Shown here one piece after another: positions 19,175-25,565 of a stretch of 42,559 nt of DNA (position 1 is its first letter; each line of letters starts with the position of its first letter). The position numbers and the translations under genes are program-made. The DNA is taken from contig WJMD01000134.1 of the NCBI GenBank assembly GCA_014728125.1, positions 1-42,559 on the forward strand, given 5' to 3'. The notes under the pieces were generated by a model. The model was not told where the DNA came from. It ran no database searches and saw only the letters and a list, made by a program, of their open reading frames with translations. This DNA comes from Candidatus Effluviviaceae Genus V sp. Its GTDB lineage: Bacteria > Joyebacterota > Joyebacteria > Joyebacterales > Joyebacteraceae.

Positions 19175-19687
19175 CTAGTCGAGGCAGTCCCGGCGACCCA
19201 GCCGTTCGTTCCTCGTATCGAGGTCGACCAGCGTGACGACGACGTCGGTGATCGGGTCGAGGCGTGACCTGGGGATGCAGTCGCTGTAGAGTTCGTGGGC
19301 GACGGCGGCTGAGCTCTCCTTGAGGAGGATGTTCTCCATGACGAGATCGGGATCCTCGGGGACGAACCAGAGGTCGATCGTCACGTCGCTCCCGTAGTCG
19401 ATCAGCTCGGTCATCTCGAAGGTGCCGTCGACCTCGACGGGCGCCTCGCTCATCAGAAGGCCGCCGACGTAGAGCTTGACTGTCACGTCGGTGATCGGCG
19501 TACCGTCCTTGCCGGTCACGAGTCCTGTGATGGTCGTCTCGCTGGCACCGCCGAAGCCCGCCCTGCTCGCAGCACGGCCCGCCGGGGGCGATGAAGACCC
19601 CGTATCGGGCGTGCCGGACGGGGGCGCGGCGGCCGCGACCGAAACGACGAGAGCCAGAAGCATCACGACGTAGATGCTCCGTTTCAT
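19175..19687 (-). CDS. Small exported protein with a carboxypeptidase-regulatory-like beta-sandwich
   Basis: This 170-residue protein of unknown function is chosen from ATG 19687, because a signal peptide (residues 2-22, VVMLLALVVSVAAAA) starts there and AAGGTGGG lies upstream. The mature part begins with a Pro/Ser/Gly-rich linker (about 24-45). It is followed by TTITGLVTGKDGTPITDVTV, the pattern of carboxypeptidase regulatory-like/transthyretin-fold domains. A second strand-rich part contains the conserved-looking SDCIPRSRLDPITDV and ends with a Cys. There is no catalytic motif. The protein is probably periplasmic or surface-bound, and the role is unclear. It is monocistronic and divergent from the PorV-like gene. 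Confidence 0.65.
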   Translation of the reverse strand: MKRSIYVVMLLALVVSVAAAAPPSGTPDTGSSSPPAGRAASRAGFGGASETTITGLVTGKDGTPITDVTVKLYVGGLLMSEAPVEVDGTFEMTELIDYGSDVTIDLWFVPEDPDLVMENILLKESSAAVAHELYSDCIPRSRLDPITDVVVTLVDLDTRNERLGRRDCLD

Positions 19688-19739
19688 GTGAATCCCACCT
19701 TTCTGCATTGCACGCGAACGAGCCTGAGCTTCCCTTCAG

Positions 19740-19768
19740 ATGGTACGAGCGGCCGCGCGGGCTGTCAA
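19740..19768 (-). promoter_or_regulatory. Promoter of the small exported-protein gene
   Basis: On the minus strand, TTGACA (complement of 19763-19768) and TACCAT (complement of 19740-19745) have exactly 17 bases between them. Transcription would start near 19733, giving a leader of about 46 bases. It is back to back with the PorV-like gene promoter. Confidence 0.65.
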
Positions 19769-19810
19769 CGGCAATCAGAAGGCGCGACGGTGGCGGGCGC
19801 CCCGGCCGGG

Positions 19811-19819
19811 TGCTATACT
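19811..19819 (+). promoter_or_regulatory. Extended -10 promoter of the PorV-like gene
   Basis: TGCTATACT is an extended -10 element (TGnTATAnT type). No good -35 is found 17 bases upstream, which extended -10 promoters tolerate. The start point would be at 19826 or 19827, exactly at the first ATG of the gene. Confidence 0.5.
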
Positions 19820-19826
19820 CCGCACC

Positions 19827-20873
19827 ATGGAAGGGATGGACGTGAAGGTCCGCAGAACGGTCCTCTCGACGGCGCTCGTCGCCACGCTGTTCCTGACGCC
19901 GGTGGCCTGCCGCGGCGTCGGAAGCGTAAGCACCAGCGCAGCGCGGCCGCTCGGCATGGGAGGGGCCTTCATGGCCGTCGAGGACCAGATCGCCGGCGCG
20001 CTCTGGAACCCCGCGGCGTTCAGTCCGCCGGACTGCATCACATCGGGCGGCTTCCGCGCGCATGTCAACATCCTCGGCGGGCCCGCCGTCATCCGGGAGA
20101 CCGGCCTTCTGACGGGCGTCGAGAGCGATCAGTTCGAAGAACTCGATCTTCCCGAGCGGACGCTCGTCGCGGTGGGCGCCCTCCTCAAGTCGGCTTCTTT
20201 CCGAAGGGGAGGTTTCTCGGCGGGCGTCGTCCTCCTCGAGGAGCACCTCGATCCGGTGGCGCTCGTCGAGTCGCAGGGCCTGGCCGACGCGGGTGATCTT
20301 CTGTCCGCCTACTACTCGACCGCCGTCGTCTCCTTCCGCCTCGATTCCCGTGTTTCGATAGGGATGGCGCTGACGCTCTTCACTCGGGACGACGGCGGCG
20401 AGCGCCGCTTCGGGACGGGCCGTTCCTACGGGGCGCTTCTGAGGCCGAACGACGAGGTCACCGTCGGACTGACCTACGTCGACGTCCCCGCGGAGTTCGG
20501 GGACTACCGCAGCAGGATAGAGGGAATCGGGCCGAGGACGATGAACGCCGGTATCGCCTGGCGCCCGCGGGAGCCCCTCGCCATCACGCTCGACCTCAGG
20601 GACCTCGCGGAGAAGAGCGGAGAGACCTCGCTCGAACCGAGAGCCGGCCTCGAGTGGAATCTCTGGAACCGCGGCGCACTGCGCGCCGGGGCGTTCAGGG
20701 AGGACGGGGGCGACCGGAACGTCCTGAGCATCGGGGCCGGAGCGATCCCGATGAGGCCGTGTTGGCGCGCTCGCGGAGCGCCGCCGGGCGACGAGTACGT
20801 TCTCAACTACGCGGTGCTTCTGGCGGACGGAGGGCGTCCTCGGCATCTCCTGTCGGCCGTGCTTCATTTCTGA
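19827..20873 (+). CDS. PorV-like (UPF0164/FadL-type) outer-membrane beta-barrel protein
   Basis: This protein of about 348 residues is predicted to be an outer-membrane barrel. An N-terminal signal segment (about 10-28, VLSTALVATLFLTPVAC) is followed by ARPLGMGGAFMAVEDQIAGA and LWNPAAF, the hallmark of PorV/UPF0164 proteins found in FCB bacteria and often tied to surface-protein export. The rest alternates hydrophobic strands with turns and ends in LLSAVLHF, a terminal aromatic as in outer-membrane barrels. Starts at ATG 19827, ATG 19836 and GTG 19842 are all possible; GGAAGG at 19829-19834 would favour the GTG. The cysteine at the end of the signal is not a good lipobox. It is followed by the FlgD-Ig gene, with its own promoter between. 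Confidence 0.7.
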   Translation: MEGMDVKVRRTVLSTALVATLFLTPVACRGVGSVSTSAARPLGMGGAFMAVEDQIAGALWNPAAFSPPDCITSGGFRAHVNILGGPAVIRETGLLTGVESDQFEELDLPERTLVAVGALLKSASFRRGGFSAGVVLLEEHLDPVALVESQGLADAGDLLSAYYSTAVVSFRLDSRVSIGMALTLFTRDDGGERRFGTGRSYGALLRPNDEVTVGLTYVDVPAEFGDYRSRIEGIGPRTMNAGIAWRPREPLAITLDLRDLAEKSGETSLEPRAGLEWNLWNRGALRAGAFREDGGDRNVLSIGAGAIPMRPCWRARGAPPGDEYVLNYAVLLADGGRPRHLLSAVLHF

Positions 20874-20883
20874 GGCTTTGCTC

Positions 20884-20914
20884 TTGACACCTCCGCCGTC
20901 GGACGTTGTATCCT
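20884..20914 (+). promoter_or_regulatory. Possible promoter of the FlgD-Ig/PorV-fusion operon
   Basis: A perfect TTGACA (20884-20889) lies 19 bases before TATCCT (20909-20914); TTGTAT at 20906-20911 with a 16-base spacer is an alternative. The leader of about 80 bases includes a direct repeat of TCACCTTA. Confidence 0.45.
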
Positions 20915-21001
20915 CTGGCGGAGTATCACCTTAAGTCACCTTACGCGCCGCTCGGGGCGCGGGACGACCGCTCTCTCAAGGAAGCTGGAGGAGGCTCTGT
21001 G

Positions 21002-22642
21002 ATGTCGAAGCCGCTCGGACCCGGCGGCGTGGCTCTCCTGGTCGTGCTGGCCGCCGCATTGCCCGTCCGGTGCGCACTTCTGAGCGACCTGTCCGTCATC
21101 CCGAACCCCTTCTCACCGAACGGGGACGGGACGTACGACCAGACGGTCCTGTCGTACACGCTCTCCGACTCGGTCTGGACCGTGGTCGCCGTCGAGGACA
21201 CCGCGGGCGGTACCGTCCGTGAGCTCTGGTCGGGCTTCCAGAACGCCGGGGATTACGGCTTCGCCTGGGACGGGCGCGGAACGGGAGGTACGGTCGTCGA
21301 CGACGGGGTCTATACCTTCGCCGCGACCGCCGACGAGGAGCGGAGAACACTGTCCGTCGTGCTCGACACGCGGGCGCCCGAGATCACGGGGCTGAGCGTT
21401 ACGCCGAGCCGCTTCACGCCGGACGGGGACGGCGTCTCGGACAGCCTGTTCGTCAGGTTCGTCGTCAGCGGCGCCGAGTCGGGCGATCTGGTGACCGTCG
21501 ACGTCCTCGATGATAGTGAATCCCTCGTCGAGTCCCTCTTCCAGTCGACGAACGCCGGGAGCGTCTCGGTGACATGGGACGGGATGAGCGGCGGCGAGAC
21601 GGTCGCCGACACGACATACAGTATCAGCGTCGAGACGCTCGACGCGGCCGGGAACGGCGCCATGGAAGGCGGCATCATCGACGTCGACACGGACCCGCCG
21701 TCGATCGGCTCGAGCGCCCCCGACACGACCGGAATCGTCGCGACCGACACGACCACGGTCACGCTGACCGGCTGGGTCTACGACCGGGCCGGCGTGGACT
21801 CGCTCCAGTACACCGCGGACGACTCAACGTGGACACGGGTTTCCCTCGTGGAGCACGGGTCGGTGCCCGGCGCCTTCACGTGGTCGTTCGACGTCAGCTG
21901 CCCCGCGTGCACTCTCGACGTGGCCGAGGAGTCGGTCGGCATCAGACTGAGGGCGTACGACGGCACACTCACGGCCGACGGGAAGGGGCATGTCAACACG
22001 GACTCGAGCACGCCCGCTCCTCTGGAGTTCGATGTCTACTTCGATGTCGCCGTTCCCGTGCTTTCGTCCTCCTCCGTCACCGACGACGATTCCGTCTACG
22101 AGCCGGGGGAGACCGTCACGATTGAGACGATCTGGGACCAGGGCGGCTACAATATCGACGCGTTCTTCTACCAGATCGACAGCGAGTTCGATGAGGAGGG
22201 CGTGACGGTCAGCGACTTCGGCAACGGAAGCTACGAGGTGACGTACACGGTATCCGCGTCGAACACCTACGTTCCAGTCGGTCCCGAGCGCGTGCGCATC
22301 GTCGCCTCCGACTACTTCCACTCCGTTGCGGACTCGTCGGTTCTCGTCTCGGTCGAGGATACGCCGGCCTCATCGTCGGGCTTCTCGGTCGACCGGAACA
22401 GTTTCGATCCGGGCGAGGGTGAGACCGTGACCGTCGATCCGGGCGACTCGTCCGGCGCCGTCGAGGTCGACATCTACAGCATATCGGGTGCGCTCATCGT
22501 CTCGCTCTCCGCGGAGGCCGGCTCCGCCGTGACATGGGACGGCACGAACGCCGACGGCGAGACCGTCGCGAGCGGGGTCTACTTCCTTCTGACGCGTGTG
22601 GACGGTGATGAGATCGTCCGCAAGGTCGCCGTCGTCAAATAG
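21002..22642 (+). CDS. Exported FlgD-Ig-like repeat protein with a sorting-type C-terminus
   Basis: This 546-residue secreted protein starts at ATG 21002, with GGAGGAGG at 20987-20994. A signal peptide is at about 8-25 (GVALLVVLAAALPVRCA). Near the N-terminus, PNPFSPNGDG (34-43) and, at about 135, PSRFTPDGDG are the entry motifs of FlgD-type Ig-like domains (pattern of WDG plus GVYT). Middle domains are Asp/Thr-rich beta-sandwiches. The last 80 residues repeat the fold with VTWDGTNADGETVASGVYFL and end in KVAVVK, which resembles the C-terminal tails used for surface sorting in type IX-like systems. I cannot confirm type IX secretion. Neighbouring PorV-like genes make a surface-attachment role plausible. 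Confidence 0.75.
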   Translation: MSKPLGPGGVALLVVLAAALPVRCALLSDLSVIPNPFSPNGDGTYDQTVLSYTLSDSVWTVVAVEDTAGGTVRELWSGFQNAGDYGFAWDGRGTGGTVVDDGVYTFAATADEERRTLSVVLDTRAPEITGLSVTPSRFTPDGDGVSDSLFVRFVVSGAESGDLVTVDVLDDSESLVESLFQSTNAGSVSVTWDGMSGGETVADTTYSISVETLDAAGNGAMEGGIIDVDTDPPSIGSSAPDTTGIVATDTTTVTLTGWVYDRAGVDSLQYTADDSTWTRVSLVEHGSVPGAFTWSFDVSCPACTLDVAEESVGIRLRAYDGTLTADGKGHVNTDSSTPAPLEFDVYFDVAVPVLSSSSVTDDDSVYEPGETVTIETIWDQGGYNIDAFFYQIDSEFDEEGVTVSDFGNGSYEVTYTVSASNTYVPVGPERVRIVASDYFHSVADSSVLVSVEDTPASSSGFSVDRNSFDPGEGETVTVDPGDSSGAVEVDIYSISGALIVSLSAEAGSAVTWDGTNADGETVASGVYFLLTRVDGDEIVRKVAVVK

Positions 22643-22668
22643 CATCACTTGGTCGGGAGGTTCACGAC

Positions 22669-24183
22669 ATGTCGAAGATGAGCATCGCGGTCCTTCTCTG
22701 CGTCATCCTCGCCGCGGCCGGAGCCGATGAGGCCGTGTCGGCGGGAACATCGGGCGCGCAGTTCCTCGGCGTCGGTCTCGGGGCACGGTCGGCGGCGATG
22801 GGCGGAGCATCCGCCGCGATCGTCGACGGCAGAGCCGCCCTCGTCTGGAACCCCGCGGGCCTGTCCCGAGTGGGGGGACAGCTCGTGTCGGTCGCGCACG
22901 CCTCCTGGCTCGACGACGCGTCGTACCAGTACGCGACCTACGCCCGCCCGCTCGGATCGAGCGGGGTCGTCGGAGTGGCGCTCGAACAGGGCTCGCTGTC
23001 CTGGGACAACACGGGAGAGGGCTCGTTCGAGGCGGGCGACTTCGCCGGTGCCGTCGGCTACTCGCACCTGCTTCGCGCGAACCTCGCGGTGGGCGCCGAC
23101 GTCAGGTACATCGCGAGCACGCTCGGCGACGACGACGCCTCGTCGTATGCGCTCGACGCCGGCGTCGTCTACCTTCCAACCGACAGGCTGTCGTTCGGCG
23201 CGGCCGTCAGACACCTCGGTCCCGGAATGGAGTTCGGCGACGAGAGCGACCCGCTCCCGGTGACGCTCGTCGGCGGCGCTTCGTATCGCTGGCGCGACGT
23301 TCTGCTGGCGCTCGACGTCGAGAAGCAGAACGACATGGATGCGGGCGTGCGGTTCGGCGTGGAGTACTCGCCGCTGCCGTACCTCGACCTGCGGGCCGGC
23401 CTGACCGGAGGCGCCGACTCGGCGCTCTCGCCGTACTCGGCGGGCGTCGGCTTCAGCTGGTCCGAGAGCTGGATGCTCGACTACGCCTACCGGCCGTCGG
23501 ACCTCGGCGCCACGCACCAGGTCGCTCTGTCGGCGGCCTTCGGCGGACCCGCCGCGATGGGCTCCGTCACCGAGGAAGGGGAGGGTCTGAGCGAGCCACC
23601 GGTACCGAAGACGAACCTCACGGTGCTCAGCGACCTCGTCGCGGAGACGATCGAGGAAGCGGTCGACCGGATGAACATCCCGGAGGGTGCCCCCGTCTAC
23701 ATTCAGCAGTCGGAGTCGCACGGGGCGGGCTGGCTCGTGCAGTCGCTTCTGACGGCGGAGCTGACCGACCGCGGGCATCCCGTTCGCTCGGGCAAGATGA
23801 CCGGCGGGAACGCCGACGATTCGGAGGACCCGGAGGTGACCTATCAGGTCTCGTACCGCATCGTCGCCTGCGAGATGTCCTATCCGAGGGTCTGGAGAGA
23901 GTGGCTCGTCGGAACGAGGAAGGTCGAGCGTCGCGCGGCCGTCGACATCCACTTTCAGCTCTCCGATCTCTCGCAGTCCGTGCTCTGGGCCGGAAGCGCG
24001 AAGCGGGAGCGACGGGACGTCGTCCGGGGGTCGAGGATCCCCGAGCTTGTGACGCCCGGGCAGGAGTTCACGACGCCGCCCCTCGAAGCCGGCGGATGGG
24101 ACAAGGTGCTCGAGCCCGTCGTCGTGGCCGGTATCGTCGGGGGCCTGATCTACCTCTTCTACACAAGCAGATCGTCCGATTAG
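22669..24183 (+). CDS. PorV-like barrel fused to an unknown C-terminal domain with a terminal helix
   Basis: This 504-residue protein has a signal peptide (about 1-25, IAVLLCVILAAAGADEAVSA). The PorV/UPF0164 hallmark ARSAAMGGASAAIVDGRAAL then VWNPAGL begins about residue 44, and the barrel-like part continues to about residue 300. Unlike typical PorV proteins, a second domain of about 190 residues follows from residue 314 (NLTVLSDLVAETIEEAVDRM). It contains VYIQQSESHGAGWLVQSLLT and VDIHFQLSDLSQSVLWAGSA, somewhat reminiscent of CsgG/LpoB/FlgO-type periplasmic folds, and it ends with one hydrophobic segment (about 480-498, VVVAGIVGGLIYLFYTS). The function is unknown. It is preceded by the FlgD-Ig gene and followed by a BamD-like gene, so an envelope role is likely. 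Confidence 0.75.
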   Translation: MSKMSIAVLLCVILAAAGADEAVSAGTSGAQFLGVGLGARSAAMGGASAAIVDGRAALVWNPAGLSRVGGQLVSVAHASWLDDASYQYATYARPLGSSGVVGVALEQGSLSWDNTGEGSFEAGDFAGAVGYSHLLRANLAVGADVRYIASTLGDDDASSYALDAGVVYLPTDRLSFGAAVRHLGPGMEFGDESDPLPVTLVGGASYRWRDVLLALDVEKQNDMDAGVRFGVEYSPLPYLDLRAGLTGGADSALSPYSAGVGFSWSESWMLDYAYRPSDLGATHQVALSAAFGGPAAMGSVTEEGEGLSEPPVPKTNLTVLSDLVAETIEEAVDRMNIPEGAPVYIQQSESHGAGWLVQSLLTAELTDRGHPVRSGKMTGGNADDSEDPEVTYQVSYRIVACEMSYPRVWREWLVGTRKVERRAAVDIHFQLSDLSQSVLWAGSAKRERRDVVRGSRIPELVTPGQEFTTPPLEAGGWDKVLEPVVVAGIVGGLIYLFYTSRSSD

Positions 24184-24196
24184 CACGGGGGGACGT

Positions 24197-24955
24197 GTGA
24201 CGACACCATCCAGAAGGCTGACAGTGGCCCTGTCGCTCGGTCTCATCGTAGCGGCGTTCTTCGGGTGCTCGCCGATGCCCGACCTGTCCGAGGCGACGGC
24301 CGAGAGCGCCTACGAGGCAGGCGTCGCGGCGATGGCCGCCGAGGACTATCTCATCGCGGTCGAGGCCTTCCGGCGCGTGACGGACACGTACCCGCTCTCG
24401 CCGGAGGCGGACGACGCCCTGCTCGGTCTCGCAGACGCGCACAGAGCGGTCCGGGAGTACGCCCTCGCCGAGAACGAGTACCTTCGCCTGACGCAGGAGT
24501 ATCCAGAGTCGCCGCTTGTGCCGGAGGCCCGCTACAAGCTCGGGGTCACCTACTATGAGCAGTCGCTGCCCGCGTCACTCGATCAGACGATGACCCGGAG
24601 GGCGCTCTCGCAGCTCAACAGCTTCCTGGCGACCTATCCAGCCAGCGCGTTCGCTTCGGACGCCGAGGAACTCGTTGACGAGCTGCGTGCCCGTCTGGCG
24701 GAGAAGCTCTTTCTCTCGGCCGAGCTCTATCTGTCGCTGAACGACGTCGACGCGGCGGGTGTCTACTTCGAGCAGGTCGTCGAGGACTATCCCGACACCC
24801 CCTGGGCGCCGCGCGCGCTCCGGACGTGGGAGCGGAGCCTGAGGGAGGCGGGCGAGACGGCGCGGGCCGACGAGGTCCGCGGCCGGCTGGACGAACTCTA
24901 CCCCGAAGAGGCCGGCGAACCGAGCCCTCAGGACGGCGGCGGGTCCGGTTCATAG
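24197..24955 (+). CDS. BamD-like TPR lipoprotein
   Basis: This 252-residue lipoprotein has a signal at about 9-23 and a lipobox (FFGC, Cys24), followed by TPR-like helical repeats from about residue 36: ESAYEAGVAAMAAEDYLIAV, AENEYLRLTQEYPESPLVPE, then VEDYPDTPWAPRA. This is the architecture of BamD (YfiO), the essential Bam-complex lipoprotein that helps insert outer-membrane barrels, although generic TPR lipoproteins look similar. The GTG start follows GGGGGGA. The C-terminal tail is Gly/Ser-rich. bamA lies about 17 kb downstream, so the Bam genes are split. Confidence that it is BamD rather than another TPR lipoprotein is moderate. Confidence 0.7.
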   Translation: MTTPSRRLTVALSLGLIVAAFFGCSPMPDLSEATAESAYEAGVAAMAAEDYLIAVEAFRRVTDTYPLSPEADDALLGLADAHRAVREYALAENEYLRLTQEYPESPLVPEARYKLGVTYYEQSLPASLDQTMTRRALSQLNSFLATYPASAFASDAEELVDELRARLAEKLFLSAELYLSLNDVDAAGVYFEQVVEDYPDTPWAPRALRTWERSLREAGETARADEVRGRLDELYPEEAGEPSPQDGGGSGS

Positions 24956-24986
24956 CGCGCTGGCCCTCGAGAGGGAGGCGATCGGT

Positions 24987-25565
24987 CTGGCACTCGGTAT
25001 TCTGGGGGGTACGTTCGACCCCGTGCACGTCGCTCACCTGATCGCCGCCGAGACGGCCGTCGACGAACTCGGCCTCGACTCCGTGGTTCTCATCCCGGCA
25101 GCGCGCCCTCCGCACAAGGAGGGCGAGTCGGTCTCACCGTTCGAGGACCGTCTCGAGATGGTCCGGCTGGCGATCGCGGACAACCCCGCGCTCGAGGCTT
25201 CCGATCTCGAGGCGTCGCGTCCCGGCGCCTCCTACACGATCCAGACGGTCCGCGAGGTCAGGACCAGGTACGCCGTCGACGACCTCTGGTTCGTCATGGG
25301 CGCCGACAGCCTCACGCAGTTCCTCACCTGGAAGGACCCCGAGGCCCTGCTCGAGGAGTGCCGCTTCGCGGTGGTTCCAAGGCCCGGCGTCGATCCGGGT
25401 GACGCCGATCCACGCGTTCTCGGGCGCACCGTTATGCTCGACATGCCCTTCGTCGGTGTCTCGGCGACAGACATTCGCAGCAGGGTCCGCGCGGGCCGCA
25501 CGATCCGCTACCAGGTTCCGGCCTCCGTCGAGTCCTACATAAGAGAGAAGAGCCTCTACTCATGA
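24987..25565 (+). CDS. nadD: Nicotinate-nucleotide adenylyltransferase, CTG start
   Basis: This 192-residue enzyme adenylates nicotinate mononucleotide to give deamido-NAD, a key step of NAD synthesis. Its frame from CTG 24987 reads LALGILGGTFDPVHVAHL, the adenylyltransferase signature. No ATG, GTG or TTG exists in this frame for more than 80 bases upstream of the motif; the next GTG at 25023 would cut into the active-site motif. GGGAGG at 24973-24978 lies eight bases before the CTG. The other hallmark FVGVSATDIRSRVRAG and LIPAARPPHKE are intact, so the gene looks functional. The stop overlaps the polA start (ATGA). Confidence 0.85.
   Translation: MALGILGGTFDPVHVAHLIAAETAVDELGLDSVVLIPAARPPHKEGESVSPFEDRLEMVRLAIADNPALEASDLEASRPGASYTIQTVREVRTRYAVDDLWFVMGADSLTQFLTWKDPEALLEECRFAVVPRPGVDPGDADPRVLGRTVMLDMPFVGVSATDIRSRVRAGRTIRYQVPASVESYIREKSLYS

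Follow-up and report, generated by a model that had tools for sequence, protein, structure and literature searches.

Results

The locus and its neighbourhood

The window, that is the whole stretch of 42,559 nucleotides under analysis, holds a run of forward-strand genes in which a surface protein with a FlgD-Ig domain, a two-domain PorV-like protein, the lipoprotein BamD and NadD are encoded in this order (Table 1). The two-domain protein is read from a real open reading frame (ORF) in the ORF listing of the window, and the antisense ORF at 22645-24246 (533 aa) appears to be a shadow ORF produced by GC-rich coding DNA. Only 26 bases separate the end of the FlgD-Ig gene from this ORF and bamD starts 13 bases past it, both neighbours being as the initial annotation had named them. 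The FlgD-Ig protein is a probable partner or cargo of the barrel; its sorting domain reached 20.5 bits with TIGR04183, under the cut-off of 23, and 0.0032 with Por_Secre_tail. The start codon of nadD is likely CTG (24987) or ATC (24981), behind GAGAGGGAGG (window 24981-25023), and the conserved GGTFDPVH motif precedes the first ATG, GTG or TTG. The genes after nadD are presumably polA and coaE, judged from their translations. On the reverse strand, divergent from the barrel gene that begins at 19740, a gene at 19175-19708 encodes a small protein that is secreted and whose CarboxypepD_reg-like match is weak (E=0.0082).

Table 1. Genes and protein features of the locus in window coordinates.
Feature	Coordinates	Strand	Evidence
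Second, divergent PorV-like barrel gene (PORX)	19740..20873	+	NF033709 4.9e-6, below cut-off
FlgD-Ig surface protein, T9SS-type-A-like C-terminus	20906..22642	+	PF13860 1.5e-26
PorV-family barrel, LptE/CsgG-fold domain and hydrophobic tail helix in one gene	22669..24183	+	504 aa; ORF, NF033709, relatives
Predicted signal peptide, residues 1-26	22669..22746	+	Hydrophobic segment; barrel model begins at 27
PorV/FadL-type 14-strand barrel, residues 27-292	22747..23544	+	NF033709, AF2 strands, Foldseek, PDB profile
Flexible linker, little conserved, residues 293-311	23545..23601	+	pLDDT <50; conservation 38% over 293-312
C-terminal domain (CTD) core, LptE/CsgG/HpaA-type alpha/beta fold (predicted), residues 312-462	23602..24054	+	AF2, Foldseek
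Tail helix EPVVVAGIVGGLIYLFYTS, very conserved, residues 477-500	24097..24168	+	AF2, conservation, hydropathy
BamD lipoprotein gene	24197..24955	+	TIGR03302 157.6 vs 81.4 bits; PF13525 1.8e-28
nadD, third gene of the conserved cluster	24987..25565	+	Non-canonical start codon, placed by inference

A conserved GTSG marks the start of the barrel right behind the predicted signal peptide. AlphaFold2 (AF2) modelled the full-length protein as 14 strands (residues 71-291, moderate confidence) and an unstructured linker, followed by an alpha/beta domain (316-460; pLDDT mostly 87-91, lower in the loops) and a helix at 477-500, where a final hydrophobic helix had been noticed from the sequence. Among relatives the columns of the barrel are conserved at 0.74 on average, those of the linker at 0.38, those of the CTD core at 0.66 and those of the tail helix at 0.91. 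A separate domain thus does follow the barrel as had been proposed, and it contains both motifs quoted at that time, VYIQQSESHGAGWLVQSLLT and LSDLSQSVLWAGSA; its size, given as about 190 residues, needs correction, as about 210 residues lie beyond the barrel end including a 20-residue linker, and CTD plus tail without the linker make up 193. That the C-terminal part might be a mere repeat of the barrel is excluded by the predicted structure, in which it is an alpha/beta domain of its own with a helix.

The barrel belongs to the PorV/PorQ subfamily

The PorV-like character claimed for the first 300 or so residues was borne out. NCBIfam model PorV_fam (NF033709, PorV/PorQ subfamily) matched residues 27-289 with E=3.4e-40 and 138.6 bits vs a curated cut-off of 90, and together with the 14 predicted strands and PorV at the top of the Foldseek matches this makes the barrel a member of the subfamily. 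The best Foldseek match of the full-length model was PorV of the type IX secretion system (T9SS; 8gl6_F, E=2.1e-11), followed by FadL-type channels and by BamG (9hiv_F) at 8.7e-7. When the family profile was searched against the PDB, PorV alone was significant (6h3i_F, E=2.8e-11), with no significant match to BamG or FadL, and the sequence therefore gives no support to a barrel that is BamG itself. Among the narrower NCBIfam models neither the T9SS PorV equivalog NF033710 (39.8 vs 250 bits) nor the T9SS PorQ equivalog (89.6 vs 220) was reached, and Pfam Toluene_X stayed below its cut-off on the window protein (E=0.57). In Pfam and NCBIfam no family of assigned role matched over the full length.

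The C-terminal domain: fold and family

The isolated CTD (residues 312-504), modelled by AF2 from a diverse alignment, gave a confident fold of LptE/CsgG/HpaA type with mean pLDDT 92.5 and pTM 0.81. Foldseek matched it to HpaA (1.9e-5), LptE (about 1e-4), CsgG (4uv2, 1.4e-4) and FlgT (1.6e-3). As the TM-scores against these solved folds are low (0.20-0.52), the CTD is assigned to the fold class only, and the CsgG match, with probability 1.00 and TM 0.29-0.34, holds at the superfamily level only. The guess of a CsgG/LpoB-type domain in the initial annotation consequently stands as a matter of fold and fails as one of family: residues 312-504 of the window protein matched nothing in Pfam or NCBIfam, the CTD profile found no Pfam, NCBIfam or PDB family, CsgG-type Pfam and NCBIfam models gave zero matches among 36 diverse CTD members, and sequence membership in the CsgG, LpoB or LptE families was not found. 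No description of the CTD family or of its fusion to PorV was found in the protein families and open-access papers searched, and the CTD is here regarded as a new domain family and the fusion as a variant on the known PorV barrel.

LptE being among the nearest folds, PorV lying within the FadL fold family and lptE standing near nadD in E. coli, the CTD could be taken for a lipid or LPS handling factor, a paralogue of LptE, with the barrel as a FadL-type lipid channel. This is very unlikely in view of the missing match of the CTD to PF04390 (LptE) and of the separate PF04390 LptE that is encoded in 22 of 24 CTD genomes; in the window genome that gene is followed by holA and has leuS nearby. With a distinct LptE in the same genome, the identification of the CTD as LptE was rejected.

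Partial profile matches without the tail (G228, G033, G288, G087, G151) were classed separately as CsgG-like lipoproteins, some of which (among L109-L116) show PEGA or weak DUF4136 matches. Three of these lipoproteins (L109, L111, L116) bear PEGA, some of them also TPR, with the hairpin core of the CTD and no tail motif. Such distant tail-less cousins, some with PEGA/TPR, link the CTD to CsgG-like lipoproteins. A TonB C-terminal domain interrupts the CTD in family f99, where it is inserted after the N-terminal part and before the hairpin (PF03544, 5.6e-10 in L069 8070-9044; L071 and L074 are similar by eye).

The tail helix

The tail is the most conserved piece of the 504-aa protein: over residues 479-500 mean conservation is 91% and 16 of 22 positions are invariant, which exceeds the need of a generic hydrophobic anchor. 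Its best 19-residue GRAVY is 1.95. Flank charges summed over 31 proteins are +52/-26 before the helix and +27/-20 after it, and judged by the positive-inside rule these flanks give no support to simple anchoring of the C-terminus in the inner membrane; the rule was discarded as proof of such anchoring. Since Sec should retain a segment whose GRAVY is near 2, a partner of the helix would somewhat more likely be found in the inner membrane, an outer-membrane partner being possible to a lesser degree.

Distribution, fusion and synteny

Searches with the CTD profile covered 386 genomes. In the family of the window (f1) one copy each was detected in 19 of 20 genomes, the window's own counted, and the exception is only 73% complete. 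The named relatives in this family are 'Candidatus Eisenbacteria' MAGs, and the CTD is fused to the barrel in all 18 other extracted members wherever the contig permits a view (L022 is truncated by the contig end and L015 begins within the barrel). Outside f1 the fusion occurs in four genomes of two families, G290 in f215 and G226, G085 and G356 in f67 (loci L066, L078, L105 and L106), every one with a FlgD-Ig gene 5' and bamD-nadD 3'. The profile search for proteins with both domains and for their neighbourhoods thus found the fusion in three families, between FlgD-Ig and bamD-nadD. As it recurs in the 18 relatives and in these four genomes, the architecture is not a product of chance or of assembly.

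In roughly 35 genomes outside f1 the CTD is mostly a stand-alone protein of 200-400 aa with a signal sequence and a hydrophobic tail related to the window form EPVVVAGIVGGLIYLFYTSR. Among 35 genomes read there, bamD lies downstream on the same strand in 28 and nadD comes next after bamD in 25, with one intervening ORF between CTD and bamD in L073 and possibly L068. Genes that we take from their translations to be rimO or lnt are often upstream of the CTD in other families. An unfused relative of PORX is found directly upstream of a stand-alone CTD in L094, L101 and L102, and within 3.2 kb of one in L084 and L108. A phylum-level sample around G346, of nine genomes only, contained the CTD in two. 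In family f137 a membrane-anchored SLT lytic transglycosylase is encoded directly 5' of the stand-alone CTD (L072 8710-9390, PF01464 1.8e-24, with a similar gene in L070), as expected for trans-envelope machines. The order CTD-bamD-nadD may be a frozen ancestral operon.

The fused barrels form one group in the barrel tree (77/92, 78% of bootstraps), which favours a single group of fused barrels, and the CTD tree does not resolve a single from a multiple origin of the fusion. The simplest origin is probably that a cargo-PorV cassette was placed 5' of a pre-existing CTD gene. Such an event could have been fortuitous, the cassette having come to stand 5' of a periplasmic gene unrelated to it, with loss of the stop codon, so that the halves work separately in an inherited order. 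Most families indeed have the CTD without fusion, the linker lacks structure and varies in sequence, and several cargo-PorV pairs exist in the window genome. A fortuitous fusion is nonetheless unlikely, given that it is kept in all viewable relatives of the same family, without split copies there, and in three families in total, and that PorV-like barrels stand directly 5' of unfused CTD genes in the three loci mentioned above.

SprA, PorV paralogues and the T9SS context

Of the 38 genomes outside f1 whose CTD bears the tail, all have the T9SS translocon gene sprA, vs 94 of 366 overall (hypergeometric 4e-26; by family 28 of 28, 1e-18), these statistics ignoring kinship. Conversely, 56 SprA genomes outside f1 had no detected tail-bearing CTD. 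SprA is reported to be specific to the FCB superphylum, and its co-occurrence with the CTD may for that reason reflect shared ancestry and not function. All of the 34 CTD genomes sampled for PorV (27 of them outside f1) carry 6-26 matches to the PorV family. Five PorV-rich genomes in which SprA was not detected (G037, G046, G048, G228, G288) had no tail-bearing CTD, in the direction expected of a T9SS link, and they are too few to prove one. The CTD and sprA lie on one contig, 14-33 kb apart, in five genomes of three families (G153, G255, G117, G383, G139), which is no more than suggestive.

In the window genome SprA scores 540.6 bits with TIGR04189 against a cut-off of 200. PorV paralogues are located there just after or near large surface proteins at three places (L124 4274-9999, L125 3452-7950, L127 4119-9149), and two of these surface proteins pass the cut-off for the T9SS type A sorting domain: one is a C25 peptidase, one short ORF away from its PorV gene, and the other a sorting-domain cargo that adjoins another PorV gene. 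The cargo-PorV pair is a recurring gene pair in this genome, and the FlgD-Ig and PorV genes of the window show the same layout, followed by CTD-bamD-nadD.

The motor genes gldL (TIGR03513) and gldM (PF12081) were both over their cut-offs in only 2 of 78 SprA genomes, G222 and G352, and neither of these has the CTD. Divergent GldL/GldM motors may have been missed by the models. In SprA-bearing bacteria that lack GldL/GldM the CTD might form a trans-envelope link which, by way of the BamD module, positions type IX export that has no motor or supplies its power. Its tail helix would then anchor it in the inner membrane, and its other end would be tied to the outer membrane by the PorV barrel or, in a few stand-alone forms, possibly by a lipid. 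Such a role is decidedly unlikely. The CTD-PorV fusion also raises the question of how SprA lineages without detected GldL/GldM power their T9SS-type export.

Discussion

A proposed coupler between a T9SS-type barrel and BamD

A domain for which Pfam and NCBIfam hold no model is conserved 5' of bamD-nadD across many bacterial families, all of its tail-bearing carriers found outside f1 have SprA, and in three families it is fused to a barrel of the PorV type, the class of the T9SS shuttle. The initial annotation had proposed a dedicated surface-export or barrel-anchoring component, which is plausible from the T9SS genome context and the synteny with bamD. As a tentative account, with a chance approaching even, the PorV-type barrel and the ancient BamD-linked periplasmic CTD would together couple a T9SS-type barrel to BamD and the BAM complex. 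The barrel would sit in the outer membrane and bind clients of the T9SS type, for example the product of the FlgD-Ig gene immediately 5', the CTD would reach into the periplasm and dock on the neighbouring BamD/BAM module, and the conserved tail helix would pack on a specific membrane partner. The outcome would be a physical coupler that holds a surface-export barrel where outer-membrane barrels get assembled.

A connection between BAM and T9SS is suspected for Bacteroidota, although BAM as purified there was free of T9SS components (PMC12611786). Chlorobiota are reported to be without BamG and BamH and also without SprA (PMC12611786, PMC12578637). No literature that links PorV or T9SS with a CsgG-like or LptE protein and BamD was found among open-access papers. 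The natural CTD-PorV fusion is a concrete, testable candidate for the suspected connection and may point to a relation, so far undescribed, between two machines of the outer membrane.

The CTD could instead serve BAM only, as a periplasmic subunit on the BamD side in FCB bacteria other than Bacteroidota, with the fused barrel bound to BamA in the part of BamG and with T9SS irrelevant. It directly adjoins bamD in most families, and the barrel resembles BamG in fold at the Foldseek value given above. BamG is moreover a FadL-family barrel of the Bacteroidota BAM core whose C-tail touches BamD (PMC12611786, PMC12578637). This is rather unlikely in light of the sequence profile, which is significant for PorV and not for BamG or FadL, with Toluene_X under its cut-off; the fused barrel is furthermore confined to few lineages whereas the CTD is widespread without it, and the PorV paralogues of the genome adjoin T9SS-type cargo.

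Comparison with known systems

The LptE/CsgG/HpaA/FlgT class shares with the CTD a predicted order of helix-strand-helix-strand-long hairpin, with Foldseek probability near 1.0, and its members are outer-membrane-associated; the CTD differs in having no sequence membership and TM-scores of 0.20-0.52, and the window protein lacks a lipobox and ends in a conserved hydrophobic helix. The tail-less CsgG-like lipoproteins (L109-L116) have the beta-hairpin core in common with the CTD (E=1e-6 to 1e-16) and are without its conserved EPxxV tail motif; a bamD-like gene adjoins in L114 and L115 only, and several carry PEGA/TPR.

BamG of the Bacteroidota BAM is likewise a FadL-fold barrel, tied to BAM as the window gene adjoins bamD, but the profile of the window barrel finds PorV and not BamG, and the window protein has a folded C-terminal domain of which none is described for BamG in the available text (PMC12611786, PMC12578637). 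PorV of T9SS (NF033709; 6h3i_F, 8gl6_F) has the same 14-strand FadL-type barrel and N-terminal GTSG...MGG, and the window genome encodes SprA and T9SS-type cargo. In contrast to that PorV, the window barrel scores below the equivalog cut-off, its gene adjoins bamD, and the protein adds a domain of 190 residues and a tail helix.
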